DNA of 64,000 bases from Onthophagus taurus (taxonomy: Eukaryota; Arthropoda; Insecta; Coleoptera; Scarabaeidae), in assembly GCF_036711975.1 (NCBI RefSeq), contig NC_091975.1:5830501-5894500 (forward strand). The letters run 5' to 3'. The notes beneath the pieces were generated by a model. The model was not told the DNA's origin, ran no database searches, and saw nothing but the letters and a program-made list of their open reading frames with translations. Of the stretch, positions 36,230 through 64,000 are shown piece after piece. The translations under genes were made by a program, and so were the position numbers. Each line of letters starts with the position of its first letter. The stretch's first letter is position 1.

Positions 36230-39200
36230 TGAACAAAAACTATTAAATAACTAATGATAATATAATTATGATAACTAAGATATTATTTATAGCACAGTCA
36301 AACCAGATTAAATTTCCTATAAAATGCTTCTTATTTCATTCTGACATCTTAATTATTTCTTGAGATACGATTCTTTTAATTCCTGTTATTAAATCTTCCA
36401 CAACTATTAAATATGCAACCTTAATCAAAATATCATAACTACCAGAATTATGATATCAAAAAAATTATTTATGGCAGCATAAAACTAGATTAAATTCCCT
36501 TTAAAATTCTTCTTATTTCATCACTATATCTCAATTATTTCTTGAGATACGATTCTTTTAATTCCTGTTATTACGACTTCCACAACTATTAAATATGCAA
36601 ACTTAATCAAAAAATCGTAACTAATACGATAATGTCAATTAAGATATTGTTTATGGCACAGTCAAACTAGATTAAATAACCTTTAAAATGCTTCTTATTT
36701 CATCTTCATATCTCAATTAGTTCTTGAGATACGATTCTTTTAATTCCTGGTATTAAATCTTCCACAACTATTAAATACGCAACCTTAATCAAAAAATCAT
36801 AACGACCAGAATTATGGTAGCTCAAAAATTATTTATGGCACCATAAAACTAGATTAAATTTCCTTTAATATGCTTCTTATTTCGTCTTAATATCTCAATT
36901 ATTTCCTGAGATACGGTTCTTTTAATTCTTGTTATTAAAAATTCCATAACTATTAAATTTGCAACCTGAATAAAAAAATCGTAATTACTACGATTATGAC
37001 AACTAAGTTATTATTTATGGCACAGTCAAACTAGATTAAATTTCGAATAAAATGATACTAATTTCATTCTGATATCTCAATTACTTCTTGAGATACGATT
37101 CTTTTAATTCCTGTTATTAAATCTTCCACAACTATTAAATAAGCAACCTTAATCAAAAAATCATAACTACCAGAATTATGATATCAAAAAAATTATTTAT
37201 GGCAGCATAAAACTAGATTAAATTCCCTTTAAAATTCTTCTTATTTCATCACTATATCTCAATTATTTCTTGAGATACGATTCTTTTAATTCCTGTTATT
37301 ACGACTTCCACAACTATTAAATATGCAAACTTAATCAAAAAATCGTAACTAATACGATAATGTCAATTAAGATATTGTTTATGGCACAGTCAAACTAGCT
37401 TAAATTTCCTATAAAATGCTTCTTATTTCATCTTGATATCTCAATTAGTTCTTGAGATACGATTCTTTTAATTCCTGGTATTAAATCTTCCACAACTATT
37501 AAATACGCAACCTTAATCAAAAAATCATAACGACCAGAATTATGGTAGCTCAAAAATGATTTAAGGCACCATAAAACTAGATTAAATTTACTTTAAAATG
37601 CTTCTTATTTCGTCTTAATATCTCAATTATTTCCTGAGATACGGTTCTTTTAATTTTTGTTATTAAAAAATTCCATAACTATTAAATTTGCAACCTGAAA
37701 AAAAATCGTAATCTACGATTATGACAACTAAGTTATTATTTATGGCACAGTCAAACTAGATTAAATTTCGAATAAAATGATACTAATTTCATTCTGATAT
37801 CTCAATTACTTCTTGAGATACGATTCTTTTAAATCCTGTTATTAAATCTTCCACAACTATTAAATATGCAACCTTAATCAAAATATCATAACTACCAGAA
37901 TTATGATATCTAAAAAATTATTTATGGCAGCATAAAACTAGATTAAATTTCCTATAAAATGCTTCTTATTTCATCTTGATATCTCAATTAATTCTTGAGA
38001 TACGATTCTTTTAATTCCTGGTATTAAATCTTCCACAACTATTAAATACGCAACCTTAATCAAAAAATCATAACGACCAGAATTATGGTAGCTCAAAAAT
38101 TATTTATGGCACCATAAAACTAGATTAAATTTCCTTTAAAATGCTTCTTATTTCGTCTTAATATCTCAATTATTTCCTGAGATACGGTTCTTTTAATTCT
38201 TGTTATTAAAACTTCCATAACTATTAAATTTGCAACCTGAATAAAAAAATCGTAATTACTACGATTATGACAACTAAGTTATTATTTATGGCACAGTCAA
38301 ACTAGATTAAATTTCGAATAAAATGATACTAATTTCATTCTGATATCTCAATTACTTCTTGAGATACGATTCTTTTAATTCCTGTTATTAAATCTTCCAC
38401 AACTATTAAATAAGCAACCTTAATCAAAAAATCATAACTACCAGAATTATGATATCAAAAAAATTATTTATGGCAGCATAAAACTAGATTAAATTCCCTT
38501 TAAAATTCTTCTTATTTCATCACTATATCTCAATTATTTCTTGAGATACGATTCTTTTAATTCCTGTTATTACGACTTCCACAACTATTAAATATGCAAA
38601 CTTAATCAAAAAATCGTAACTAATACGATAATGTCAATTAAGATATTGTTTATGGCACAGTCAAACTAGCTTAAATTTCCTATAAAATGCTTCTTATTTC
38701 ATCTTGATATCTCAATTAGTTCTTGAGATACGATTCTTTTAATTCCTGGTATTAAATCTTCCACAACTATTAAATACGCAACCTTAATCAAAAAATCATA
38801 ACGACCAGAATTATGGTAGCTCAAAAATTATTTACGGCACCATAAAACTAGATTAAATTTCCTTTAAAATGCTTCTTATTTCGACTTAATATCTCAATTA
38901 TTTCCTGAGATACGGTTCTTTTAATTCTTATTATTAAAACTTCCATAACTATTAAATTTGCAACCTGAATGAAAAAATCATAATTACTGCGATTATGACA
39001 ACTAAGTTATTATTTATGGCACAGTCAAACTAGATTAAATTTCGAATAAAATGATACTAATTTCATTCTGATATCTCAATTACTTCTTGAGATACGATTA
39101 TTTTAATTCCTGTTATTAAATCTTCCACAACTATTAAATATGCAACCTTAATCAAAATATCATAACTACCAGAATTATGATATCTAAAAAATTATTTATG

Positions 39201-41955
39201 GTAGCATAAAACTAGATTAAATTCCCTTTAAAATTCTTCTTATTTCATCACTATATCTCAATTATTTCTTGAGATACGATTCTTTTAATTCCTGTTATTA
39301 CGACTTCCACAACTATTAAATATGCAAACTTAATCAAAAAATCGTAACTAATACGATAATGTCAATTAAGATATTGTTTATGGCACAGTCAAACTAGATT
39401 AAATAACCTTTAAAGCCTTCTTATTTCATCTTGATACCTCAATTAGTTCTTGAGATACGATTCTTTTAATTCCTGGTATTAAATCTTCCACAACTATTAA
39501 ATACGCAACCTTAATCAAAAAATCACAACTACCAGAATTATGATATCTAAAAAATTATTTATGGCACCATAAAACTAGATTAAATTTCCTTTAAAATGCT
39601 TCTTATTTCGTCTTAATATCTCAATTATTTCCTGAGATACGGTTCTTTTAATTCTTGTTATTAAAACTTCCATAACTAACAAATTTGCAACCTGAATAAA
39701 AAATCGTAATTACTACGATTATGACAACTAAGTTATTATTTATGGCACAGTCAAACTAGATTAAATTTCGAATAAAATGATACTAATTTCATTCTGATAT
39801 CTCAATTACTTCTTGAGATACGATTCTTTTAATTCCTGTTATTAAATCTTCCACAACTATTAAATACGCAACCTTAATCAAAATATCATAACTACCAGAA
39901 TTATGATATCTAAAAAATTATTTATGGCAGCATAAAACTAGATTAAATTCCCTTTAAAATTCTTCTTATTTCATCACTATATCTCAATTATTTCTTGAGA
40001 TACGATTCTTTTAATTCCTGTTATTACGACTTCCACAACTATTAAATATGCAAACTTAATCAAAAAATCGTAACTAATACGATAATGTCAATTAAGATAT
40101 TGTTTATGGCACAGTCAAACTAGCTTAAATTTCCTATAAAATGCTTCTTATTTCATCTTGATATCTCAATTAGTTCTTGAGATACGATTCTTTTAATTCC
40201 TGGTATTAAATCTTCCACAACTATTAAATACGCAACCTTAATCAAAAAATCATAACGACCAGAATTATGGTAGCTCAAAAATGATTTAAGGCACCATAAA
40301 ACTAGATTAAATTTACTTTAAAATGCTTCTTATTTCGTCTTAATATCTCAATTATTTCCTGAGATACGGTTCTTTTAATTTTTGTTATTAAAAAATTCCA
40401 TAACTATTAAATTTGCAACCTGAAAAAAAAATCGTAATCTACGATTATGACAACTAAGTTATTATTTATGGCACAGTCAAACTAGATTAAATTTCGAATA
40501 AAATGATACTAATTTCATTCTGATATCTCAATTACTTCTTGAGATACGATTCTTTTAAATCCTGTTATTAAATCTTCCACAACTATTAAATATGCAACCT
40601 TAATCAAAATATCATAACTACCAGAATTATGATATCTAAAAAATTATTTATGGCAGCATAAAACTAGATTAAATTTCCTATAAAATGCTTCTTATTTCAT
40701 CTTGATATCTCAATTAATTCTTGAGATACGATTCTTTTAATTCCTGGTATTAAATCTTCCACAACTATTAAATACGCAACCTTAATCAAAAAATCATAAC
40801 GACCAGAATTATGGTAGCTCAAAAATTATTTATGGCACCATAAAACTAGATTAAATTTCCTTTAAAATGCTTCTTATTTCGTCTTAATATCTCAATTATT
40901 TCCTGAGATACGGTTCTTTTAATTCTTGTTATTAAAACTTCCATAACTATTAAATTTGCAACCTGAATAAAAAAATCGTAATTACTACGATTATGACAAC
41001 TAAGTTATTATTTATGGCACAGTCAAACTAGATTAAATTTCGAATAAAATGATACTAATTTCATTCTGATATCTCAATTACTTCTTGAGATACGATTCTT
41101 TTAATTCCTGGTATTAAATCATCCACAACCATTAAATACGCAACCTTAATCAAAAAATCATAACGACCAGAATTATGGTAGCTCAAAAATTATTTAAGGC
41201 ACCATAAAACTAGATCAAATTTCCTTTGAAATGCTTCTTATTTCATCACTATATCTCAATTATTTCTTGAGATACGATTCTTTTAATTCCTGTTATTACG
41301 ACTTCCACAACTATTAAATATGCAAACTTAATCAAAAAATCGTAACTAATACGATAATGTCAATTAAGATATTGTTTATGGCACAGTCAAACTAGATTAA
41401 ATAACCTTTAAAATGCTTCTTATTTCATCTTGATATCTCAATTATTTTTTGAGATACGATTCTTTTAATTCCTGGTATTAAATCATCCACAACCATTAAA
41501 TACGCAACCTTAATCAAAAAATCATAACGACCAGAATTATGGTAGCTCAAAAATTATTTAAGGCACCATAAAACTAGATCAAATTTCCTTTAAAATGCTT
41601 CTTATTTCATCTTAATATCTCAATTATTTCCTGAGATACCGTTCTTTTAATTCTTGTTATTAAAACTTCCATAACTATTAAATTTGCAACCTGAATAAAA
41701 AAATTATAATTACTACGATTATAACAACTAAGTTATTATTTATGGCACTTAAATTTCGAATAAAATGATACTAATTTCATTCTGATATCTCAATTACTTT
41801 TTGAGATACGATTCTTTTAATTCCTGTTATTAAATCTTCCACAACTATTAAATATGCAACCTTAATCAAAATATCATAACTACCAGAATTATGATATCTC
41901 AAAAATTATTTATGGCAGTTATGATGATATCTCAATTATTTAGTAAGATACGATT
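36230..41955. repeat. 182-bp satellite array with tetrameric (about 728-bp) higher-order structure
   Basis: About 31 monomers. The marker CTTTTAATTCCTG recurs at 36373, 36555, 36737, 36919, 37101, 37283, 37465 and 37647, every 182 bp. Four variants follow each other as A-B-C-D: A has CCAGAATTATGATATC, B has ATTACGACTTCC, C has TTCCTGGTATTAAATC and D has GATACGGTTC or TTGCAACCTGAA. The tetramer repeats through the array, with some three-monomer units in which A and B are fused (near 37826 and 40555). A larger segment starting near 37.1 kb recurs about 2725 bp downstream, for example the rare CAAAAATGATTTAAGGCACC at 37551 and 40276. Edge copies are diverged. No coding capacity. Confidence 0.95.
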
Positions 41956-42224: not shown

Positions 42225-45200
42225 ATGAATCTAAAATTGCTCCCGATTTTTTTAATAATTCTTATAGCAGTGGTTTTGATTCGGGGGAGGAGGGTACACG
42301 AAAATGAAATCGTTCTGAAAATTTTAGGTGGAGTTGAAGTCGCCAGGGTTATCGCTGAAGAGATGGGTTATGAATTTTCAGAAGCAGTAAGTGATTTTTT
42401 TGAGGTACCTTGATAGTTTATTTTTTGTGTTGCTTTTATGTTATGATAAAGCACTAGAACATATGTGGGGTAATAAAACTGAAAATCTATTAAAGCGTGT
42501 TGGGTGCGATAACAAAGAATCGAGAGGATTTATCACGTAATCTACCTAATCTACCTACGGCGGACTTTTATCACGTATTTCGATCACAAAAAATAATCAA
42601 CGCCAACTCTTTCGATTTTAGAAAATAATAATGAAAGGAAATCTCGTATTTGAGACGATCTAATCGATTTAATCTATTTTGCATTCTCAATTTATCTTAA
42701 TCGACTCTTGATTTGGTTTAATTTGATTTGTTTCTTGCATCCCAAGGAGATTTGGTTGATTTTTTTTATTGATTGAGTTGACTTTGACGTTTATTAGTTT
42801 GGACAAAGTAACTTTTAAGATAACCCATCAAGTGTTAAGATTATTAATAACTTCTGAATTATTCATGTTGATCTATTAAGAGAAATCGGGGTGGGTTGCT
42901 AAATTCGTCCTTGGACTGACTAAGTAAACAGATAGTTCAAGGATATTTTATCTAGTTTACTTATTTATTTAGTTTATCACTTTTTGCAATTTACAATTTT
43001 ATAAAGTTAATTTTTAATAATTTATTGAATTTTATCAGTTAAAAACTGAATGGGTTATTTTGAAACCTAAATAAGTAATCAACAAGTAGTAGCACGTGGT
43101 ATTAAATGCAACAAGTACTTTTCGGTCGTCGCGATGCTCCCTCGACGTCGTTGTTATCCTCGTCGACGTCGCGACGCCGTCGATCGATTCGCGGACGCCG
43201 GCCCAAAAGGTAGCGCGAAAAGCGACGCTTTCTACCAGGAGAACATAAACGTTGTTCTATATCTAACGGGCACGTGCCACACCCCTAAAAATAGATCACG
43301 CATATCGCACCACCCTCCCGAATTTAATTATAGATCGATTACGTCGGCGGTGACGCCGCTTTCAGTTAACGCAACGAATAAAGACCGAAAATGAAAGAGA
43401 GGGATACCCAGATGGGGGCCACACTATGTTATTCCACGTGTGGGGGACACAATTTGAACCATTTATACTTTATTTATTTTTTGATTAGGTTTTGGGATTC
43501 CCCGATACATACATATTTCTTCCATACGACGATGGAAGAATCTCTTATCAAAAAAGAGGCATGGATCTTTCAAAACGCTTAATAAACGACGATAGGGTAA
43601 CTTGGTTCGAGCACCAACAAGTTAAATCAAGACAAAAACGTGATTTCCTCCCCTTCAAAATCAAAAGAAACCCTCAAAAAAAATCGTTTATTTTTAACGA
43701 TGAGTTATGGGGGCAACAATGGTATCTTCAAGACACCAGGACGAGAATCGAACTTCCAAAACTCGACTTAAACGTCCTCCCAGTTTACAGAGAAGGAATA
43801 ACTGGAAAAGGAATAAGAATCAGTATTTTAGACGATGGCATCGAACACACCCATAAAGATCTCAAAGAAAATTACGTAAATTAATTCCAATCAAAATTTC
43901 TTCTGTTTAATTAATTTTTTTAGGATCCCGACATAAGTTTTGATTGCAACGAAGATGATAACGACCCGTTACCGCGTTATGATCCATCGAGACAAAATAG
44001 CCATGGTACAAGATGCGCCGGGGAGATTGCGATGATTGCTAATAATGGAAAATGTGGTGTTGGAGTCGCTTTTAACGCCAAAATCGGAGGGGTGAAGATT
44101 CTCGATGGGCTGGTTAACGATCGCATCGAAGGTACCGCTTTGGGATACGCCCAGCATCTCGTTGATATTTACAGTGCTTCCTGGGGACCGAACGATGATG
44201 GGAAAACCGTAGATGGTCCCGGAAGATTGGCCAAAGAAGCTATGGAAAGAGGAATTAGAGAGGTTAAAATTTATATTTTTTTAAACATTAAATCATTTTT
44301 TAATCCCAACTTTTTATCTGTTGTCACTGTTATTCTTATTTTATATACAAGCTGCTCTAAAATTCACCTTTCAAGCTTCTAAGACTTCTAAAATAATCAC
44401 GTTGAAGATAACCCATGCGCGTGTAATGGATATTACTCCCAGCAGCGTCTGAAATGTTCTGGTTGAACAAAAATTGTAGCTCGGAAACTAGCGTTTCTGG
44501 ACATGGGTTGCAAATAAACGTATTATCTACTCAATACCTTCTATAAGTCCTAGTTACCTTCTACAAATTGGTAAAGGGAATTTTAAAGCATACACACGTT
44601 TATCTTGTTATTCTACGGGCACTTTTCCTACTCATGTTCAACCTTCCATGTTATAGTAGAAGTAGTATAAAGTATGATGTCTTTACATCTGCGAGAGCCC
44701 TAATCTTTATTCCATATGAAGTAAAAAGATTGAGGAAGCTTAGTTTTGTTTACAAATGTCAATCTGAAATCCGAAACAATTATTTCAAGAAGAAATTAAG
44801 AAAGGAGAAAAGTGTCCAGTGTTGGTTACTCATTGCAAGGACAAGAGATTGGTGGGTATGATATCAACAATGCATAGACACCGAATGCTAGAAGCAACAA
44901 ATAGAAAAGAAAAAGAAGTAACAAAACCTCTCCTACAATAAATACATGTCCATACAACTCATCACCAAGGAAAACCATAAGATGGCACAGAAAAGTGTTG
45001 TTTTATCTTATAGATACTGCAATGTGGAATACTTATTACATATACGAAGGAAATATATTAAGAAGGAAAGAGATACAACCAAAATTGACCTTTTGAGGTT
45101 CAGAGAAAAAGTTATAAAGGATATGCTACAGCCCAACCCAACCCAACCATAGACCAACGATCAGAATTCCATTATCTGGAGACAGTTCCCTCCACACAAA

Positions 45201-48200: not shown

Positions 48201-49818
48201 TTTTAACAAAACATTATTAAGAAAATCTCTTCAGTTTTACCTCTTTTAGTCTGCTTCGTATGTTATAAATCACCCTGTATAAAAGTATGTAATTGCATAT
48301 CGCATGAGAACAATAATACTAGAGAACATATGAAAGGGCAACAACATTAAAGTTTGATTTCGTATGCTATGCAAAAAAATTACTGTTTTCGGGTCATTAG
48401 TGACCCAGTTTTGGTCGTACAGTAAAAAGAAATACAACAAGGAAGAAGTTGAGAAATGTAAGAAAGATGATGATCATAGAGAAGATTTTTAGATAACTTA
48501 GGTTTGAAGCAATGCGGAAATATCTAAAATAGTATTTTTAAATAAATAGGATTTAATGACTTCATTTTCAAAATCTCTGATCTTTATAAACTCCATCAAA
48601 CACAATAAATAGACTTCAAATTACAACTTTATAAGATTATTTTTTGTGATTATTTAAGATTTATGATTTTTTTTAGGGACGAAATGGAAAAGGAACAATT
48701 TTTGTTTGGGCATCAGGGAACGGTGGAAGTTTAGGTGATAATTGTAATTGCGACGGTTATTTAGCTAGTCCTTACACAATTTCAATTGGAAGTGCTTCTC
48801 AAAAAGGAGAGTTTCCATGGTACGGAGAAGCGTGCGCTTCAACTTTAGCAGTAACATATTCATCGGGAGCTTATCAAGATCAAATGATCGTTACAACCGA
48901 TCTTCACAATGAATGTACAATAAAACATACCGGAACATCAGCTTCCGCACCTTTAGCAGCGGGAATTATAGCTCTAGCTTTAGAAGTGAAGTAATTTTTT
49001 TTATGAAATAAATTAATTTTATTACTTTTTTAATAACAATTTTTTTAGTCCTAATCTTACTTGGAGAGACGTGCAACATTTAATTGTTTGGACATCGGAA
49101 TTAGCCCCCGTGGCTGAAAACCCCGGTTGGCAAATGAACGCAGCCGGATTATGGTTCAACACGAGATTCGGTTTTGGTTTAATGAACGCTTTTGGCTTAG
49201 TTAAAGCAGCCGCTAATTGGACTGAAGTGCCCCCAAGAAAAATGTGCACAACATCAGCACCAGGAAATAACGATTTCGGCTTCGATGCCCCAATAACAAT
49301 CGAAATTCATACCGATAGTTGTCGCGGGACAAAAGACGAAGTTAATTATTTAGAACACGTTGAAATACGAACAACAATTCTATATTCAATAAGAGGAGCT
49401 TTAGAAGCATATCTCATTAGCCCGAGCGGAACGAAGGTTCAACTTTTAGCTTCTAGGAAGTTGGATAAATCTAAGCTAGGATTTATAAATTGGTCGTTTA
49501 TGTCGGTAATGACTTGGGGGGAAGATGCCGCGGGGAAATGGACTTTTATAGTCGAGGATAAAGTAAGAAAAAAATCGTAATAAGAAAAGTTTAATAAGAA
49601 TACATTTAAAGTTAAAATTTTTGTTTTAGAATGGCCCGTTTACAAACAACGGAAGTATTAGTAACACTAATTTAAATCTTTATGGTACGAAAGAACTTCC
49701 TGAACATATGAAATACGGAGCGAGAGTTTATAATCACAATTACAACCGAGTACATAACAGATTGGATGTTATTAATTGGTATAAAAATAACGTTGAGGAT
49801 TATTTAAATTCGATTTAA
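42225..49818 (+). CDS. Proprotein convertase, PC1/3-like (subtilisin/kexin S8 family)
   Basis: Six exons: 42225-42386, 43489-43875, 43924-44262, 48677-48990, 49049-49562 and 49630-49818, 634 residues, in phase. Residues 1-21 are a signal peptide. The prodomain includes [20 protein letters not shown] and ends at the autoprocessing site RQKR (102-105). The catalytic triad is D169 ([10 protein letters not shown]), H210 ([10 protein letters not shown]) and S384 ([13 protein letters not shown]). The oxyanion residue is N311 (WASGNGG), which excludes PC2, where it is Asp. The P domain follows from about 430. [26 protein letters not shown] and [12 protein letters not shown] resemble vertebrate PC1/3 more than furin, and there is no transmembrane anchor or Cys-rich domain. 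The enzyme would cleave prohormones at dibasic sites in the regulated secretory pathway. The usual P-domain RGD is RGA here. Furin-like is the alternative. Confidence 0.9.
42387..43488 (+). other. Convertase intron 1 with a CpG-dense patch
   Basis: Mostly AT-rich, but about 43120-43250 is exceptionally CpG-dense, with runs such as CGTCGACGTCGCGACGCCGT. This could be an internal promoter or alternative first exon for the convertase. The open frame at 43134-43394 shows no conserved motif. Confidence 0.4.
44263..44659 (+). other. Convertase intron 3, 5' end, nothing recognised
   Basis: Starts with the GTTAAA donor after ERGIRE. No repeats or coding segments were seen before the piggyBac relic. 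Confidence 0.5.
44660..45320 (+). pseudogene. piggyBac-type transposase, C-terminal half, decayed
   Basis: The plus strand with frame changes reads YDVFTSAR, then [33 protein letters not shown] and [20 protein letters not shown], then [22 protein letters not shown] and finally [20 protein letters not shown] before WHSAQ and TAA. The order (KLKKGE, KWKDKRDVxMLST, KPxxVxxYNKYMxGVD, Cys-rich CPxCPxxxxLCxxPCFRxxH end) is that of piggyBac transposases. Stops and frameshifts abolish the frame. No TTAA-flanked termini could be located. Confidence 0.8.
45321..45696 (+). other. Convertase intron 3, between relics
   Basis: No recognisable element. The minus frame at 45484-45666 has no known motif. Confidence 0.4.
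45697..47254. mobile_element. Candidate TIR element with GGGTGTCC/GGACAC ends
   Basis: The left end TATAGGGTGTCCAGTTAAGC and the right end GCTTAACGGGACACTCTGTA are imperfect inverted repeats flanked by TATA-type sequence. The 1.56-kb interior has no transposase; it contains open frames (46404-46586 and others) without recognisable domains. It is a non-autonomous element in convertase intron 3, ending about 15 bp before the next element. The boundary call is moderate because the TIRs are short and imperfect. Confidence 0.5.
47270..48279. mobile_element. TA-flanked TIR element (about 1.0 kb) in convertase intron 3
   Basis: The ends are nearly perfect inverted repeats of about 40 bp: TACAGGGTGATTTATAACAT on the left, mirrored on the right up to ACCCTGTA, with TA on each outer side. 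A second inner block (AGCAGACTAAAAG / CTTTTAGTCTGCT) extends the match. No transposase frame is present, so it is non-autonomous, compatible with a Tc1/mariner-type MITE-like element. It lies immediately after the element ending at 47254. Confidence 0.82.
48280..48676 (+). other. 3' end of convertase intron 3, nothing seen
   Basis: AT-rich DNA up to the acceptor TTTTTTTAG at 48676. No features recognised. Confidence 0.55.
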
Positions 49819-50136: not shown

Positions 50137-53100
50137 TTATTTTTTTTTACCGGCAACGCTTCTTTTACCAATCGCTGTTAAACTTTCATAAAGTTCTTTC
50201 ATTGGATTAACATCCCCTGGTAAACCATGCGCCCAAATTAACATAACCCGAAATCCGTGTTCTTTAAAACTTGAAGGGCCCGTGTATTGATGTTCAACGG
50301 CTCTAATTTGTTCTTCGGTGAACGCCCAATGTTGAGCCAACTTTTTCCACTCCCCCGGGCCTAGTTGTTTGTAAGATAATTTATAAAGAATCTCTTTGAA
50401 TCTCTCGCTATCTTTTCCTTTTAATTCTTCTTTTGTGTTTCTCCATTTCCGACTTCCCGGGTTTAATCCCGGTTTGAAGCTGTTTTTTCGTTGCGCGTTA
50501 CTTTCTTGTTCTTCATTCGCGGGATAATCTAATCTCGCCGTTTTAATTATCATATCAACTATCGCTGTGAAACTACCCCTAGCTGCGATGTATAAAGGGG
50601 TTCTTCCACCTTGCTCTCGTTGTTCTATGTTAGCCCCCGCCACTAATAACAATTTACAAATGTTTGTGTAACCCATCTCAGCTGCTATATGAATTGGAGA
50701 TTGTAATCTCTAAAATAATAAATTATAATAAAACAAATTTGGATTAATTTAACTTACTGCGTTTAAGCTGTTTAAATCAGCCCCCCTATTAATTAGAATT
50801 TCAACGGTGTCCACTTCATTCGCTTGACTCGCTAAATGTAACGGTGTATTACCGGCCTACAAAGAGAATAACCAAAGTAAAATGTTAATTAAAACAAAGT
50901 TTAAGGTTTACTTTGTTTTGTTTATTTAGGAGGGCACCGTGTTGTAACAACAGTTCCAAAATACCTTTACTCCCGAGGCTACACGCTATATGAAGGGCCG
51001 TAGATCCTTTCTAAAGAACAAAGAGAAATAATTAACATAAATTAATTTAATTTACTTCTTTTTTTACGGAATTTTCAGCGTCCGGGTCGGCGCCGGCATC
51101 TAATAAAATTTGGGTTAATTTCGTTTGTTGGTTTTGCGCCGCTAAATGTAACGGAGTATTTCCTCCATTATCCCTTGCTTCCATATCGGATTCATGAGCC
51201 AATAAACACTCGGCTACCTCTGGATGGCCCTTTTCGCATGCCACATGCAGTGCAGTTTGCGATTGCTGGAACGAGATAGACAGGTTAATCAAACTCAATA
51301 GTTCGGCTTCAAAATCCGTTAGATGTTTGTTTGTTAGTGGCAGGATTAATTACGAGAATCAAAAAGTACAAACCAAATAAAAATAACCTTATTTCGTTTA
51401 TCCAAAGCAGCTCCGATTTCGATTAATTTTTTAACGATTTTTGCATGACCTCCCATGGCAGCGTGGAATAAAGCCGTTTGCCCTTCGATATCCACAGCAT
51501 CAACATTGATATCTTCGAGAGTTTCCAATAAAAAATCAACCACATCTTTCCGATCGTTTTTAGCGGCGCATATCAACAAAGAATATTGTTTCTACAACGC
51601 CAAAAAAAATATGTTAATTTTTAATTCAATACAAAAAGTTCGTGCTTATCTGTAAACTACATCAAAATGAAATTATTGATTTTTTTCATCTCTCGAGGGC
51701 GTTTCATAAATTACCGTTTTGTTTTAAAACAAACACAAACGTTTACGTTTCAGCATTAACCCCTTTGAGTCGAATAAATCTTGATTTAAATTTAACAAGA
51801 ACGGATGGACTCTTACTGTTGGAGTTTTCCTCTTTACAAACCTTATTCGTTGATTTTGTACCGGCTCCCATGTTGATAAGAAGTTGGACGGCTTCGCGAT
51901 GACCGTGCCAAGCTGCCATCAATATCGGTCTCATTCCGTACTAAAATATATTTTTATTTAATAAAGAAAATGCTACTTGCGAAATTCCAACCTTATCTTT
52001 TGCTTCTAAGTCGCAATTAGACGATAAAAGCATTTCCATGATTTCTAAATTTCCTCGCGATGATGCCCAATGCATTGGAGATCTACCATACTACGATGTT
52101 ATAAGATAAAAAGAACTTTTTTAATTATTTTTAATTTAAAGTATAAAATTTGAATATAAAGTTTAGGACTAAACCAGCGGAAATCAAAAAAAGTATCTCT
52201 TCTATATAACGATTCATTAATTGCTATGCTAAACCAACTAATTTTGCAGCTTTTCCAGTTTATCCAATGAGTTTTAAACAGCAATGAGGAAGTATAACAA
52301 AATGGTGACACCTAGATTATCTGTTCTGTGACTAAACCAAGGCTAGGTTGATGCCCAAACACGAATCAGGTTTATTTCCAACTGTGTGTTAGGTTGATAT
52401 CTAAAGACAAATCAGGTTTATGCCTAAACCAGGGTTAGATTGATGCCCAAAACACAATCGGGTTTATTTCCAACCCCAGATTAGATTGATGTCCAAAGCC
52501 AAGTCAGATTTATCTCTAAACCAAGATCACGTTCCATGATTTCTAAATTTCCGTGCGATGGTGCCCAATGCCTTGGAGATCTACTATACTACGATAAAAA
52601 GAACTTGAATTTTTTCAATTATTTTTAATTTAAAGTATAAAATTTGAATATAAAGTTTGCTAGTTTGAGAATCTTTAGGACTAAACCAGCGGAAATTAAA
52701 AAAAGTATCTCTTCTACATAACGATTCATTAATTTCTATGCTAAACCAACTAATTTTGCAGCTTTTCCAGTTTATCTAATGAGTTTTAAACAACAATGAG
52801 GAAGTATAACAAAATGGTGACACCTAGATTATCTGCTTTATGGCTAAACCAAGGTTAGGTTGATGCCCAAACACGAGTCAGGTTTATTTTCAACTGTGTG
52901 TTAGGTTGATGTCTAAAGACAAGTCAGATTTATGCCTAAACCAGGGTTAGGTTGATGCCCAAAACACAATCGGGTTTATTTCCAACCCCAGATTAGATTG
53001 ATGTCCAAAGCCATGTCAGATTTATCTCTAAACCAAGATCACGTTCCATGATTTCTAAATATCCGTGCGATGGTGCCCAATGCCTTGGAGATCTACCATA

Positions 53101-56100
53101 CTACGATAAAAAGAACTTGAATTTTTTCAATTATTTTTAATTTAAAGTATAAAATTTGAATATAAAGTTTACCAGTTTGTGAATCTTTAGGACTAAACCA
53201 GCGGAAATTAAAAAAAGTGTCTCTTCTACATAACGATTCATTAATTTCTATGCAAAACCAACAAATTTGGCAGCTTTTCCAGTTTATCCAATGAGTTTTA
53301 AACAACAATGAGGAAGTATAACAAAATGGTGACACCTAGATTATCTGCTTTATGGCTAAACCAAGGTTAGGTTGATGCCCAAAACACGAGTCAGGTTTAT
53401 TTCCAACTATGTGTTAGATTGATGTCTAAAGACAAGTCAGATTTATGCCTAAACCAGGGTTAGGTTGATGCCCAAAACACGAGTCAGGTTTATTTCCAAC
53501 TATGTGTTAGGTTGATGTCTAAAAACAAGTTATATTTATGCCTAAACCAGGGTTAGATTGATGCCCAAAACATAATCGGGTTTATTTCCAACCCCAGATT
53601 AGATTAATGTCCAAAGCCAAGTCAGATTTATCTCTAAACCAAGATCACGTTCCATGATTTCTAAATTTCCGTGCGATGGTGCCCAATGCCTTGGAAGTCT
53701 ACCATACTACGCTAAAAAGAACTTGAATTTTTTCAATTATTTTTAATTTAAAGTATAAAATTTGAATATAAAGTTTTCCAGTTTGGGAATCTTTAGGACT
53801 AAACCAGCGGAAATTAAAAAAAGTGTCTCTTCTATATAACGATTCATTAATTTCTATGCTAAACCAACAAATTTTGCAGCTTTTCCAGTTTATCCAATGA
53901 GTTTTAAACAACAATGAGGAAGTATAACAAAATGGTGACACCTAGATTATCTGCTTTATGGCTAAACCAAGGTTAGGTTGATGCCCAAACACGAGTCAGG
54001 TTTATTTTCAACTGTGTGTTAGGTTGATGTCTAAAGACAAGTCAGATTTATGCCTAAACCAGGGTTAGGTTGATGCCCAAAACACGAGTTAGGTTTATTT
54101 CCAACTATGTGTTAGGTTGATGTCTAAAGACAAGTTATATTTATGCCTAAACCAGGATTAGATTGATGCCCAAAACACAATCGGGTTTATTTCCAACACC
54201 AGATTTGATTGATGTCCAAAGCCAAGTCAGATTTATCTCTAAACCAAGATCACGTTCCATGATTTCTAAATTTCCGTGCGATGGTGCCCAATGCCTTGGA
54301 GATCTACCATACTACGATAAAAAGAACTTGAATTTTTTCAATTATTTTTAATTTAAAGTATAAAATTTGAATATAAAGTTTGCCAGTTTGAGAATCTTTA
54401 GGACTAAACCAGCGGATATTAAAAAAAGTATCTCTTCTACATAACGATTCATTAATTTCTATGCTAAACCAACAAATTTTGCGGCTTTTCCAGTTTATCC
54501 AATGAGTTTTAAACAACAATGAGGAAGTATAACAAAATGGTGACACCTAGATTATCTGCTTTATGGCTAAACCAAGGTTAGGTTGATGCCCAAACACGAA
54601 TCAGGTTTATTTTGAACTGTGTTAGGTTGATATCTAAAGACAAATCAGATTTATGCCTAAACCAGGGTTAGGTTGATGCCCAAAACACGAGTTAGGTTTA
54701 TTTCCAACTATGTGTTAGGTTGATGTCTAAAGACAAGTCAGATTTATGCCTAAACCAGGGTTAGATTGATGCCCAAAACATAATCGGGTTTATTTCCAAC
54801 CCCAGATTAGATTGATGTCCAAAGCCAAGTCAGATTTATCTCTAAACCAAGATCACGTTCCATGATTTCTAAATTTCCGTGCGATAGTGCCCAATGCCTT
54901 GGAGATCTACCATACTACGATAAAAAGAACTTGAATTTTTTCAATTATTTTTAATTTAAAGTATAAAATTTGAATATAAAGTTTTCCAGTTTGGGAATCT
55001 TTAGGACTAAACCAGCGGATATTAAAAAAAGTGTCTCTTCTACATAACGATTCATTAATTTCTATGCTAAACCAACTAATTTTGCAGCTTTTCCAGTTTA
55101 TCCAATGAGTTTTAAACAACAATGAGGAAGTATAACAAAATGGTGACACCTAGATTATCTGCTTTATAACTAAACCAAGGTTAGGTTGATGCCCAAACAC
55201 GAGTCAGGTTTATTTTGAACTGTGTGTTAGGTTGATATCTAAAGAAAATCAGGTTTATGTCTAAACCAGAGTTAGGTTGATGCCCAAAACACGAGTTAGG
55301 TTTATTTCCAACTATGTGTTAGGTTGATGTCTAAAGACAAGTCATATTTATGCCTAAACCAGGGTTAGATTGATGCCCAAAACACAATCGGGTTTATTTC
55401 CAACCCCAGATTAGATTGATGTCCAAAGCCAAGTCAGATTTATCTCTAAACTAAGATCACGTTCCATGATTTCTAAATTTCCGTGCGATGGTGCTCAATG
55501 CCTTGGAGATCTACCATACTACGATAAAAAGATCTTGAATTTTTTCAATTATTCTTAATTTAAAGTATAAAATTTGAATATAAAGTTTTCCAGTTTGGGA
55601 ATCTTTAGGACTAAACCAGCGGAAATTAAAAAAAGTGTCTCTTCTATATAACGATTCATTAATTTCTATGCTAAATCAACTAATTTTGCAGCTTTTCCAG
55701 TTTATCCAATGAGTTTTAAACAACAATAAGGAAGTATAACAAAATGGTGACACCTAGATTATCTGCTTTATGACTAAACCAAGGTTAGGCTGATGCCCAA
55801 ACACGAGTCAGGTTTATTTTGAACTGTGTGTTAGGTTGATATCTAAAGAAAATCAGGTTTATGCCTAAACCAGAGTTAGGTTGACGCCCAAAACACGAGT
55901 TAGGTTTTTTTCCAACTATGTGTTAGGTTGATGTCTAAAGACAAGTCATATTTATGCCTAAACCAGGGTTAGATTGATGCCCAGAACACAATCGGGTTTA
56001 TTTCCAACCCCAGATTAGATTGATGTCCAAAGCCAAGTCAGATTTATCTCTAAACCAAGATCACGTTCCATGATTTCTAAATTTCCGTGCGATGGTGCCC

Positions 56101-58763
56101 AATGCCTTGGAGATCTACTATACTACGATAAAAAGAACTTGAATTTTTTCAATTATTTTTAATTTAAAGTATAAAATTTGAATATAAAGTTTTCCAGTTT
56201 GGGAATCTTTAGGACTAAACCAGCGGATATTAAAAAAAGTATCTCTTCTACATAACGATTCATTAATTTCTATGCTAAACCAACTAATTTTGCAGCTTTT
56301 CCAGTTTATCTAATGAGTTTTAAACAACAATGAGGAAGTATAACAAAATGGTGACACTTAGATTATCTGCTTTATGGCTAGACCAAGGTTAGGTTGATGC
56401 CCAAACACGAGTCAGGTTTATTTTGAACTGTGTGTTAGGTTGATATCTAAAGACAAATCAGATTTATGCCTAAACCAGGGTTAGGTTGATGCCCAAAACA
56501 CAAGTCAGGTTTATTTCCAACTATGTGTTAGGTTGATGTCTAAAGACAAGTCATATTTATGCCTAAACCAGGGTTGGATTGATGCCCAAAACATAATCGG
56601 GTTTCTTTCCAACCCCAGATTAGATTGATGTCCAAAGCCAAGTCAGATTTATCTCTAAACCAAGATCAGGTTCCATGATTTCTAAATTTCCGTGCGATGG
56701 TGCCCAATGCCTTGGAGATTTTGAATTATTTCCAAATTTGAAGTATAAAATTTGAATATAAAGCTTTCTAGTTTGGGAATCTTTAGGACTAAACCAGCGG
56801 ATATTATCATGTTGCAAAAAGTATCTCTTGCACATAACGATTCAAAGAGTTAATTTCTATGCTAACTCACTTTGTGGCGAATCAAATAAGATATCAAATA
56901 TTAATTGGAATTATATATACGTGTAAGTAACATATTTATTTATTTATTTATTTGAAAATAATTGATGCTAATTTTTCCTTTCTATTATTCCTGTCTTTAA
57001 CGTGTGAATGGTAAAAATCCATACTTCTGGTTGTTTGTTTACAAATAGGATATGGTACAAATTTTGCAGCTTTTCCAGTTTATCCAATGAGTTTTGAACA
57101 AGAATGAGGGAGTATAACAAAATGGTGACACCTAGATTACCTGCTTTGACTAAACCAAGGTTAGGTTGATGCCCAAACACGAGTCACATTTATTTCCAAC
57201 TATGTGTTAGGTTGATGTCTAAAAACAAGTCAGATTTATGCCTAAACCAGGGTTAGGTTGATGCCCAAATCCGAGTTAGGATTATATCCTAACCCGAATC
57301 AGATTGATGTTCAAAGCCAAATCAGATTCAACCTAGACATGAATCATTAAAGTAATATTAGGAACATATCCCGTATTATTATATCTGGGACCTCCATCAA
57401 TTACAACCAATATCATGTTTCTCATCTTACCAAACATTGGTGAAGCATATAAGAAGCCCTTAAACTTTATGAATTAATTCTTTATTCGACACTTCAGCAC
57501 TTACAGAGATTCAGTAAAGCCGTTTAGCAGATCCACTAAAGATACCAACTTTAGTCAGCAAGACTCCGATAATTTGAACTCTGTAAATGTGCATGGATGG
57601 GACAATCAAACTAAACAGTGCTGGTGCTCATCAGCACTGTATCAGAATTTATAGGCCAAAGCGCTATAATTAAAGAAGTTAGATCACATAATTCTCCAAT
57701 GCATAATAGAACATTTGGGTTGCCTCGACAACAATCAAGCAGATATATTTGCCAAAAGAGCCACTGATTGAAATCTTTTAAGATATCTCATGACAGAAAC
57801 TGCTTGCGATTGGTTCTTGTGTGTCTAAATGCTGCGTACTGTTGAGCATCAATGCCTCTTACTTAGATAGACCTAAAGCACAAGATGCTGTTCTTTATTT
57901 TTTTGCAATGTATATAATGCCTAAAATGAAAAATTTCAACCATAGTTGAAATTATGGATAACTTGCAATTATGGAGACTTTGAGATGCAACTCATTAAAA
58001 TTAAAAATTTTTATTTAATGTTTCCAAGACATCATTATCACGTTTCAAAATCAATTTCACAAGTATAAAAATGTCTCGTAATTGATTTTCGACACCTTCG
58101 AAAACATTTCAGTCAAACAATCCATTATCGTGAGATCATTTTACGCGATTTCTTCATTAATTTTTTTCCCTTGACAAATTGTTTAGGTTTACTTTCAAAA
58201 CGGCGGGTTAAAGATGGTTTGTTTAAAGTATGAATTGTTAATAAGTTCGGGTTTAATTTACCGAAAGTACATAAATAGAACGAGCGGTTCGTGTAATTAC
58301 TAATTGGTCGTGGTTTATCAAATAAACGGAAACAATTTCAATGGAAATTCAATTTTGTAATCTCGTTAACTGTCGATTGAGGAACGTTGTACTCTTTCCC
58401 CCATCCCTTTGGGAAATCGGGCCGAATGAGATAACTTTCAGCTTTTATCCCCTTTATTTTCCAAACCAAAATAAATATCGAAGAAAAGATTGAATTAATG
58501 ATGGGTTAAATCGTTTTTCGATTAGTTAATTATTTGAAGCGGAAAACATCAATTATTTAAAACGTAAATCAACTCACGTTGTTTCTGCAGTTTATATCGA
58601 CTGGTTCTCTTAGAATCTTCCTGACGGTGTCCACGTCATTTTTGATGACTGCTTCGTGTAAAATTAGATCGTTTCTTTGAATTATCGCCCGCCTTTCCAA
58701 TTCTTCTGGTGTTGATGTTGGGGAGGAATTAACAACGGGTCGCATGCTAGTTTTACGTTCCAT
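50137..58763 (-). CDS. ANKDD1A: Ankyrin-repeat and death-domain protein, ANKDD1A-like
   Basis: Eight minus-strand exons: 58578-58763, 51992-52090, 51842-51940, 51388-51591, 51056-51265, 50912-51010, 50758-50856 and 50137-50709. All junctions are phase 0; the total is 522 residues. Four internal exons are exactly 99 nt, one ankyrin repeat each. About ten to eleven ankyrin repeats span 30-390 (for example TALHVACEKGHPEVAECLLA, NTPLHLASQANEVDTVEILI). A basic linker follows, then a death domain at about 433-513 (RFKEILYKLSYKQLGPGEWK, KLAQHWAFTEEQIRAVE). It is probably a cytoplasmic adaptor; partners are unknown. The Met at 58763 (MERKTSMRPVV) is the first in frame. The frame stays open upstream and an AG directly precedes the ATG, so an extra 5' exon is possible. 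Intron 1 is 6.5 kb, mostly tandem array. Confidence 0.9.
52091..57340. repeat. About 604-bp tandem array in intron 1 of the ankyrin/death-domain gene
   Basis: Eight or nine units in one orientation. Marker positions 53044, 53650, 54255, 54858, 55462, 56066 and 56671 are spaced 603-606 bp; the first spacing (52532 to 53044) is 512 bp. Each unit holds a decayed 57-bp exon piece with its splice acceptor, about 200 bp of AT-rich intron, and a segment built of smaller subrepeats around GGTTAGGTTGATGCCCAAA. The last unit is diverged and contains an insertion near 56850-57060. The array begins right at the acceptor of the functional second exon (51992-52090). Confidence 0.93.
52532..56720 (-). pseudogene. 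Eight tandem decayed copies of the 5' part of ankyrin exon 2
   Basis: Copies at 52532-52588, 53044-53100, 53650-53706, 54255-54311, 54858-54914, 55462-55518, 56066-56122 and 56671 to about 56720 (truncated) match the first 57 nt of the functional exon at 52034-52090. Read on the minus strand they encode YGRSPRHWAPSHGNLEIME instead of YGRSPMHWASSRGNLEIME. They share the same substitutions (M to R, S to P, R to H), so they descend from one ancestral duplicate. After the 19th residue the sequence departs from the exon and no donor follows. The acceptor (TTTTTATCGTAG) is kept in most copies. Confidence 0.9.
57341..58577 (-). other. 5' part of ankyrin intron 1, nothing recognised
   Basis: Non-repetitive intronic DNA between the array and the first coding exon, ending at the donor GTGAGT (58577-58572 on the minus strand). 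No exons or elements could be supported. Confidence 0.5.
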
Positions 58764-60094: not shown

Positions 60095-63000
60095 GAGTAA
60101 AAATCAAAAAAATCATAACGTCTTTAAAAATTGAAGTGGAATCATGAAATTGTTAATAAATACTCTAAAAAGGATGTAGATTTCAATGAGAAATTCGAAA
60201 TTGTTGTTAAATTCTTAATAAAAAAATTATATCTTGTTTAATAAGAAAGTGAGCGAAATTGTCATGAAATGTGATTTTTGAGATTAAAAAATTCGTAACT
60301 TTTTTCAAAATCGATTTGGAATTATGAAATTTTCTATGATTACATTAAAAAGGATTTAGATTTTAGTAAAATATGCGAAATGTTTGTTAAAATCGGTATT
60401 AAAAAGTTCTGAGTGGTGAAATGAAAATTATTTAAAAATGGGAAAAATCGTTGTATGTAATAAATTTAAAAAATCTTAACTTCTTTAAAAATCGAGGTGG
60501 AATCATGAAATTTTTGGTAAATATTCCAAAAAAGATTTATATTTCGATGAGGACTTCGAAATTGTTGTTAAATTCTTTATAACAAAGTTATATGTTGTTT
60601 AATTACACAGTGAGCGAAATCTTCATGAAATATCATTTTTGAGAATAAAAAAATTCGTAACTTTTTTAAAAATCGATTTGGAATTATAAAATTTTTATGA
60701 TTAAATTAAAAGAGATGTAGATTTTAGTAAAATGTGCGAAATGTTTGTTAAAATCCGTATTAAAAAGTTTTGAGTGGTGAAATGAAAATTATTCGAAAAT
60801 GGGAAAAATTGTTTTGTAATAAATTTAAAAAATCTTAACTCCTTTAAAAATCGAAGTGGAATCATGAAATTGTTAGTAAATACTCTAAAAAGGATGTAGA
60901 TTTCAATGAGAAATTCGAAATTGTTGTTAAATTCTTAATAAAAAAATTATATCTTGTTTAATAAGAAAGTGAGCGAAATTGTCATGAAATGTGATTTTTG
61001 AGATTAAAAAATTCGTAACTTTTTTCAAAATAGATTTGGAATTATGAAATTTTCTATAATTACATTAAAAAGGATGTAGATTTTAGTAAAATGTGTGAAA
61101 TGTTTGTTAAAATCGGTATTAAAAAGTTCGGAGTGGTGAAATCAAAATTATTTAAAAATGGGAAAAATCGTTGTTTGTAATAAATTTAAAAAATCTTAAC
61201 TCCTTTGAAAATCGAGGTGGAATCATGAAATTTTTGGTAAATATTCCAAAAAGGATTTATATTTCGATGAGGACTTCGAAATTGTTGTTAAATTCTTTAT
61301 AACAAAGTTATATGTTGTTTAATTAGACAATGAGCGAAATTGTCATGAAATGTGATTTTTTAGATTAAAAAAATACGTAACTTTTTTAAAAATCGATTTG
61401 GAATTGTAAAAATTTTTATGGTTAAATTAAAAGGGATGTAGATTTTAGTAAAATGTGCGAAATGTTTGTTAAAATCCGTATTAAAAAGTTTTGAGTGGTA
61501 AAATTAAAAGTATTCAAAAATGGGCAAAATTATTGTTAGTAATAAATTAAAAAAATCTTAACTCCTTTAAAAATTGAAGTGGAATCATGAAATTGTTAGT
61601 AAATACTCTAAAAATGCTGTAGATTTCAATGAGAAATTCGAAATTGTTGTTAAATTCTTAATAAAAAAATTATATCTTGTTTAATAAGAAAGTGAGCGAA
61701 ATCGTCATGAAATGTGATTTTTGAGATTAAAAAATTCGTAACTTTTTTCAAAATCGATTTGGAATTATGAAATTTTCTATGATTACATTAAAAAGGATTT
61801 AGATTTTAGTAAAATATGCGAAATGTTTGTTAAAATCGGTATTAAAAAGTTCGGAGTGGTGAAATCAAAATTATTTAAAAATGGGAAAAATCGTTGTTTG
61901 TAATAAATTTAAAAAATCATAACTCCTTTGAAAATCGAGGTGGAATCATGAAATTTTTGGTAAATATTCCAAAAAGGATTTATATTTCGATGAGGCCTTC
62001 GAAATTGTTGTTAAATTCTTTATAACAAAGTTATATGTTGTTTAATTAGACAAGGAGCGAAATCGTTATGAAATGTCATTTTTGAGATTAAAAAAATTCG
62101 TAACTTTTTTAAAAATCTATTTGGAATTATAAAATTTTATGATTAAATTAAAAGAGATGTAGATTTTAGTAAAATGTGCGAAATGTTTGTTAAAAATCGG
62201 TAATAAAAAGTTCTGAGTGGTAAAATTAAAATTATTCAAAAATGGGCAAAATTATTGTTGGTAATAAATTAAAAAAATCTTAACTCCTTTAAAAATCGAA
62301 GTGGAATCATGAAATTGTTAGTAAATACTCTAAAAAGGATGCAGATTTCAATGAGAAATTCGAAATTGTTGTTAAATTCTTAATAAAAAAGTTATATCTT
62401 GTTTAATAAGAAAGTGGGCGAAATCGTCATGAAATATGATTTTTGAGATTAAAAAATTCGTAACTTTTTTCAAAATCGATTTGGAATTATAAAATTTTCT
62501 ATTATTACATTAAAAAGGATTTAGATTTTAGTAAAATGTGTGGAATGTTTGTTAAAATTGGTATTAAAAAGTTCTGAGTGGTGAAATGAAAATTATTTAA
62601 AAATGGGAAAAATCGTTGTTTGTAATAAATTTAAAAAATCATAACTCCTTTGAAAATCGAGGTGGAATCATGAAATTTTTGGTAAATATTCCAAAAAGGA
62701 TTTATATTTCGATGAGGACTTCGAAATTATTGTTAAATTCTTTATAACAAAGTTATATGTTGTTTAATAAGAAAGTGAGCGAAATCGTCATGAAATGTGA
62801 TTTTTGAGATTAAAAAATTCGTAACTTTTTTCAAAATCGATTTGGAATTATGAAATTTTTTATGATTACATTAAAAAGGATATAGATTTTAGTGAAATGT
62901 TTGTTAAAATCGGTATTAAAAAGTTCTGAGTGGTGAAATGAAAATTATTTTAAAATGGGAAAAATCGTTGTTTTGTAATAAATTTAAAAAATCTTAACTC

Positions 63001-64000
63001 CTTTGAAAATCGAGGTGGAATCATGAAATTTTTGGTAAATATTCCAAAAAGGATTTATATTTCGATGAGGACTTCGAAATTGTTGTTAAATTCTTTATAA
63101 CAAAGTTATATGTTGTTTAATTAGACAATGAGCGAAATTGTCATGAATTGTGACTTTTGAGATTAAAAAATTCGTAAGTTTTCTAAAAATCGATTTGGAA
63201 TTATGAAATTTTTTATGATTACATTAAAAAGGATATAGATTTTAGTGAAATGTGCGAAATGTTTGTTAAAATCCGTATTAAAAAGTTTTGAGTGGTAAAA
63301 TTAAAAGTATTCAAAAATGGGCTAAATTGTTGTTGGTAATAAATTAAAAAAATCTTAACTCCTTTAAAAATTGAAGTGGAATCATGAAATTGTTAGTAAA
63401 TACTCTAAAAAGGATGTAGATTTCAATGAGAAATTCGAAATTGTTGCTAAATTCTTAATAAAAAAATTATATCTTGTTTAATAAGAAAGTGAGCGAAATT
63501 GTCATGAAATGTGATTTTTGAGATTAAAAAATTCGTAACTTTTTTCAAAATCGATTTGGAATTATGAAATTTTCTATGATTACATTAAAAAGGATTTAGA
63601 TTTTCGTAAAATGTGTGGAATGTTTGTTAAAATCGGTATTAAAAAGTTCTGAGTGGTGAAATGAAAATTATTTAAAAATGGGAAAAATCGTTGTTTGTAA
63701 TAAATTTAAAAAATCATAACTCCTTTGAAAATCGAGGTGGAATCATGAAATTTTTGGTAAATATTCCAAAAAGGATTTATATTTCAATGAGGACTTCGAA
63801 ATTGTTGTTAAATTCTTTATAACAAAGTTATATGTTGTTTAATTAGACAAGGAGCGAAATCGTCATGAAATGTGATTTTTGAGATTAAAAAAATTCGTAA
63901 CTTTTTTAAAAATCGATTTGGAATTGTAAAAATTTTTATGGTTAAATTAAAAGGGATGTAGATTTTAGTAAAATGTGCGAAATGTTTGTTAAAAACCGTA
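60095..64000. repeat. Satellite array, about 360-bp units (two about 180-bp halves) in a 720-bp higher-order pattern; runs off window
   Basis: Unit starts, scored at GTGGAATCATGAAATT, alternate between type A (next bases GTTAGTAAATACTC) at 60136, 60856, 61579, 62301 and 63376 and type B (TTTGGTAAATATTCC) at 60497, 61217, 61940, 62662, 63015 and 63737. The order is ABABABABBAB with a period of about 720 bp. Each unit's second half (TTGGAATTATGAAATT...) is a diverged version of the first, so the basic monomer is about 180 bp. No coding capacity. Confidence 0.94.

Follow-up and report, generated by a model that had tools for sequence, protein, structure and literature searches.

Tandem repetition of an exon-intron boundary in an ankyrin-repeat gene of Onthophagus taurus

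In the first intron of an ankyrin-repeat gene of the beetle Onthophagus taurus, pieces of the second coding exon stand in a tandem array next to the functional exon. The question raised by this locus is how the beginning of a coding exon came to be multiplied within the adjoining intron and how the exon itself has fared at the edge of the array. The sequence analysed, referred to here as the window, is a stretch of 64,000 nucleotides of contig NC_091975.1 (assembly GCF_036711975.1), and all coordinates are window positions.

The gene and the plan of the array

The gene lies on the minus strand and, with splice sites called by hand, comprises eight coding exons, the length of each being divisible by three. 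Exon 1 runs from the ATG over 58578-58763 and ends at the donor AAC/GTGAGT; it is followed by exons 2 (51992-52090), 3 (51842-51940), 4 (51388-51591), 5 (51056-51265), 6 (50912-51010), 7 (50758-50856) and 8 (50137-50709). The predicted protein has 522 residues and contains ankyrin repeats according to a family search. A search of solved structures returned 242 sequences, and the best 60 of the 242 were ankyrin-repeat proteins of many kinds, with no particular relative. The death domain was absent from the family listing for the whole 522-residue protein at E values up to 0.001, and was matched by the C-terminal 137 residues alone with 21.9 bits (E 0.00019), the curated cut-off being 22.6.

Exon 2 (99 nt) encodes 33 residues, which is exactly one ankyrin repeat (Pfam Ank, 36.0 bits), and its hand-called splice sites are an AG acceptor before 52090 and the donor AAG/GTTGGA after 51992. 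A clean duplication of the whole exon could have added one repeat to the protein; the duplication that appears to have taken place cut exon 2. Donors of the GTT type account for three of the seven donors of the gene (GTTGGA, GTTTGT and GTTATT, within 51388-52090). Intron 1 is 6,487 bp long and approximately 81 % of it is occupied by the array.

The exon piece occurs nine times in the window, once in functional exon 2 (52034-52090, in unit 1) and eight times in the array (units 2 to 9). The original prediction gave the same eight pieces; the unit length of 604 bp that it proposed holds to within 2 bp for only six of the nine units. It also placed the start of the array at the 5′ boundary of exon 2, given as 51992. 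This position is in fact the 3′ (donor) end of the exon, whose 5′ boundary lies at 52090; the first position of the repeated block, 52034, falls within the exon.

In the nine-unit alignment, all units being on the minus strand, unit 1 (52034-52531, 498 bp) comprises the first 57 nt of functional exon 2, the acceptor, intron sequence and a short minisatellite (52332-52525, no strand assigned), to which a homologous stretch corresponds in each unit, e.g. 53349-53641. The functional exon is in this way part of the first unit, and the intron and minisatellite next to it can be aligned with those of the array. The same plan is followed by unit 2 (52532-53043, 512 bp, also with a short minisatellite), unit 3 (53044-53649, 606 bp), unit 4 (53650-54254, 605 bp), unit 5 (54255-54857, 603 bp), unit 6 (54858-55461, 604 bp), unit 7 (55462-56065, 604 bp) and unit 8 (56066-56670, 605 bp). 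The respective exon pieces are at 52532-52588, 53044-53100, 53650-53706, 54255-54311, 54858-54914, 55462-55518 (in which a W codon has become an in-frame stop), and 56066-56122. The intron part is 241 bp long in unit 1 and 255 bp in units 2-8, and the minisatellite has periods of 23, 46 and 93 bp; a 93-bp step present in units 3-8 is missing from units 1 and 2.

The edge unit 9 (56671-57340, 670 bp including an insertion of 191 bp) is decayed, with a diverged minisatellite. The predicted content of each unit, namely the first 57 nt of the exon with its acceptor and adjoining intron, is found in units 2-8; in unit 9 the exon piece, which starts at 56671, is cut to about 49 nt and the acceptor is lost. 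The insertion contains a dispersed short repeat (56870-57062; 54/55 matches elsewhere in the assembly), two parts of which match side by side in opposite orientation at several places, like a small inverted-repeat element. Beside the array, at 57700-57770 in intron 1, there is a short reading frame, which by eye we take to resemble the end of a LINE RNase H domain.

With unit 3 as the query, E values were 1.6e-290 to 4.7e-273 for units 4-8, 5.7e-221 for unit 2, 1.4e-168 for unit 1, and 6.3e-91 and 9.4e-40 for two parts of unit 9; judged from such alignments, the likeness between the units is not a matter of chance. The exon piece joins the minisatellite at the identical place in all eight extra pieces. 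The junction between units 8 and 9 reads CAGG, like the TCAGG motif of the minisatellite, and the seven other junctions read CACG.

Searches of the assembly

Three queries were run against the assembly to which the window belongs (290,825,966 bases in 33 contigs): exon 2 together with unit 1 and a part of unit 2; unit 3; and the array's right edge. Only this locus was matched in these DNA searches, which scored the best candidates only, so that a missing match is no proof of rarity. A pattern of the exon piece allowing up to three mismatches was found nine times genome-wide, each time at this locus. For the minisatellite pattern, with up to two mismatches allowed, 24 of the 25 matches were located here and the other one contained two mismatches; the same pattern read backwards, used as a control, gave two matches. 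A TCAGG telomere pattern, sought as a clue to the lineage, had no matches.

Other tandem arrays are present in the window. One of them, with units of 361/181 bp, starts about 1.3 kb upstream of the first coding exon of the ankyrin gene and runs past the end of the window (60102-64000); related arrays with approximately 65-71 % identity were detected on several contigs (at least 218 matches). Another, at 36264-41917, comprises 31 copies of a unit of about 182 bp and has relatives on many contigs (at least 245 matches), the identity being about 71-75 % outside the array and 85-97 % within it. The absence of dispersed copies of the ~604-bp unit carries weight because the same search found the dispersed families of these neighbouring arrays. 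A further array, at 598-2578, comprises 10.8 copies of a 184-bp unit (94 % matches). On the plus strand, convergent with the ankyrin gene, 43924-44280 and 48677-48994 match the subtilase family (Pfam Peptidase_S8); these pieces are presumably exons of a proprotein convertase, which they resemble.

An origin from a dispersed satellite was ruled out, only this locus having been matched apart from the one weak match to the minisatellite pattern. The scattered copies that would have contradicted the original prediction were likewise not found in the assembly searches. Satellite DNA families form long arrays or several arrays in a genome, and here one locus was found; the word satellite, used in that prediction, is too strong for what is a single-locus intronic tandem repeat with a long unit.

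The result also bears on a transposable element as the source, which would have captured the exon piece and been amplified in place. Many elements carry internal minisatellites, and a dispersed short repeat is indeed inserted in unit 9. That element is present in the edge unit only, however, no copy of the unit or of the minisatellite was found elsewhere in the assembly, and the repeated block runs colinearly with the exon-intron boundary of the gene itself. This origin is largely refuted by the single-locus result and is scarcely credible.

Derivation of the pieces from a close paralogue was ruled out as well: the first 196 residues, used as a protein query, retrieved no close paralogue, and the ankyrin repeats outside the locus showed at most 43 % identity among the 105 matches listed.

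Decay of the copies and exchange between units

As predicted, all eight extra pieces have substitutions in common that are absent from the real exon. There are four of them, in three codons, by which M is replaced by R, S by P and R by H; the M to R site is a position of the ankyrin TPLH motif that, read by eye, is hydrophobic in this protein's own repeats. A chimera of the 19 residues of the array and the last 14 of the real exon scored 26.9 bits as Pfam Ank in comparison to 36.0 for the real exon, and the open translation of the piece in unit 5 matched no family at E values up to 10. On these grounds the real exon looks ancestral and the array copies derived, the polarity being taken from the ankyrin family consensus and not from an orthologue. 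The further altered codons in units 2-8 all change the amino acid, one of them to a stop (unit 7), so no coding constraint is visible in the copies. Of random changes 79 % are expected to be nonsynonymous or to create a stop, and the observed pattern is compatible with neutral decay. Coding repeats that lengthen the protein were ruled out, the pieces ending at 57 of the 99 nt and one holding a stop.

Units 2-8 differ pairwise by 2.8-4.1 %, depending on the segment. Outside the minisatellite, 8 of the 21 pairs of informative sites in these units conflicted in the four-gamete test, a result that exchange between units would produce. The unequal exchange among the copies that had been proposed is supported by these conflicts together with the decayed edges of the array.

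The same differences bear on an assembly artefact, in which one or two real units would have been over-expanded by the assembler. Tandem arrays are error-prone in assembly. Units 2-8 nevertheless differ from each other, carry private changes and vary in length, and the edge unit is distinct; an expansion error would not create such features, and we regard this explanation as very improbable. The exact copy number, read from one assembly, may be wrong.

Between unit 1 and units 2-8 the difference amounts to 8.8 % for the exon piece, 6.1 % for the distal intron and 5.6 % for the minisatellite; the 12.0 % obtained for the proximal intron is inflated by alignment across indels. When unit 1 was scanned with 50-mers, 4-11 edits to the nearest array sequence were counted over the first six windows at the exon/acceptor end, then 3 and 1 in the middle of the intron; the count rose again to 4-5 ahead of the minisatellite, to reach 0 at the far end. 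The core units 2-8 showed 0-3 edits per 50 to their nearest relatives throughout, and unit 9 up to 20, partly from its insertion. The rank correlation for unit 1 was -0.78 (Spearman, p 0.013, nine non-overlapping windows). Fisher's test of fixed versus polymorphic changes, in which four hand-counted indel events replaced eight mismatch columns in the proximal intron, gave p 0.12 for exon plus proximal intron against the rest and p 0.045 against the minisatellite alone. A position test gave p 0.0065, with indels placed by hand and three gap-dependent minisatellite differences left out.

This gradient is a modest one, and it is not monotonic. Divergence of unit 1 from the array peaks near the exon and acceptor and is lowest at the far, minisatellite end, a pattern suggesting that an exchange extending into the coding exon does not persist. 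The distal intron of unit 1 likewise shows differences from the array (6 fixed sites among 167, counted with eight of the nine units), and a recent exchange involving unit 1 is therefore unproven.

In an unrooted tree, built with no outgroup, unit 1 was on the longest branch and its attachment among the copies was poorly supported (values of 4-57). The exon piece alone (49 nt) contained almost no signal, and the tree of exon plus intron was weakly supported.

Origin, splice signals and known counterparts

The best explanation, and a highly probable one, is a single tandem duplication of part of the exon, with breakpoints inside exon 2 and in the intronic minisatellite, followed by unequal exchange. 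Such a duplication had been predicted and is supported by the single junction, the four common substitutions and the absence of copies found elsewhere. The starting point would have been a small minisatellite in intron 1, upstream of exon 2 in the sense of the gene. One breakpoint of the tandem duplication would lie 57 nt into exon 2 and the other within this minisatellite, and the block copied would have consisted of the start of exon 2, the acceptor, intron and minisatellite. The seed envisaged in the original prediction was the exon; its start is included, and the seed would be the exon-intron boundary fused to the minisatellite and not the exon alone.

Because the breakpoint cut the exon, the copy would have retained the acceptor without the 3′ part of the exon or its donor, and would have been released from coding constraint and decayed. 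The decayed copy would then have been multiplied by unequal exchange, with the functional exon remaining fixed at the edge of the array, within unit 1. Removal by selection of exchanges that bring array sequence into the exon would be the simplest account of the gradient in unit 1.

The splice signals kept by the copies allow a different, functional reading, that of an array of poison exons. The acceptors of the copies would capture exon 1 and be spliced to a cryptic donor in the minisatellite, an early stop would follow, and the copy number would tune the output of the gene. An AG with a pyrimidine tract much like the real one is present in seven of the eight pieces (units 2-8), and a donor-like GGG/GTTGGA is found 114 nt downstream in seven of the eight. 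Both occur together in six of the eight, with an in-frame stop between them in all six.

In a crude matrix the donor-like site scores 4.4, and the gene's own seven donors score 2.9-7.3; since it falls within the range of the real donors, cryptic poison exons in the array copies are possible, as a prediction from sequence. The matrix is a generic one, however, and the site lies inside the minisatellite. Unit 4 has gained an extra AG just upstream, unit 5 lacks the donor-like site, and no constraint is visible in the copies beyond the short splice signals. Data on comparable arrays of amphioxus suggest no interference with regular splicing (PMC3087553). A regulatory array of this type is considered very unlikely, and the array, apparently multiplied by unequal exchange from one partial duplication, is probably without function.

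The amphioxus arrays, named mirages, are tandem repeats across exon-intron boundaries, described for BflGb6 and also for TnC and PGBD5 (PMC3087553; PMC3902484). In these arrays the tandem copies adjoin the authentic boundary, as they do here, and in BflGb6 the 3′ end of an intron and the 5′ part of exon 2 are repeated, as in the present array (PMC3087553). In the hand-called gene model a genuine exon-intron boundary is likewise included in the beetle unit, and it is located at one end of the array. Many amphioxus copies keep splice-like signals (PMC3087553), and here the acceptor AG and tract are kept in seven of the eight pieces. Amphioxus mirages are homogenised within the cluster, its boundaries being left out (PMC3087553; PMC3902484); the corresponding values here are 0-3 edits for units 2-8, up to 11 for unit 1 and up to 20 for unit 9. 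Differences in copy number between haplotypes and RT-PCR data on splicing are also reported for amphioxus (PMC3087553).

The two cases differ in unit size, the amphioxus units being 10-160 bp long (a range found in the described mirages and not a stated definition), whereas those of the beetle measure 498-606 bp and contain a nested minisatellite. They also differ in the host, a cephalochordate in one case and an insect in the other. The array is probably a member of the mirage kind, distinguished by its longer unit and the minisatellite nested in it. The original description of a rare visible case is fair, although the kind had already been named in amphioxus.

As a representative of a kind of repeat that is known but seldom reported, the locus is a clean one, instructive and not revolutionary. 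It illustrates a route from a coding exon to a tandem array, in which a copy is freed from selection and then homogenised by exchange, and the functional exon appears to limit this homogenisation. If so, the balance of unequal exchange and purifying selection would be measurable base by base. A literature search that was not aimed at insects and did not include subscription journals returned no insect exon-boundary array like this one; exon-boundary arrays, found described mainly in amphioxus, would thereby be known from an insect too, in a form whose unit is several times longer.

Two other systems are less close. Internal tandem repeats in human segmental-duplication genes have units of 30 bp on average and four repeats, and half of them are in coding sequence. 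Some stand at an exon-intron boundary, as here, where new introns or the activation of cryptic splice sites may result; the part of the report seen describes no decayed exon pieces in a long-unit array (PMC2812944). In the Drosophila simulans clade the duplications are Y-linked and comprise several exons, and the available text describes no intronic array of a cut exon boundary (PMC8794474). The likeness is that a subset of exons is duplicated there, often beside the presumed functional copy, and template switching and unequal crossing-over are named as sources of the tandem repeats (PMC8794474).
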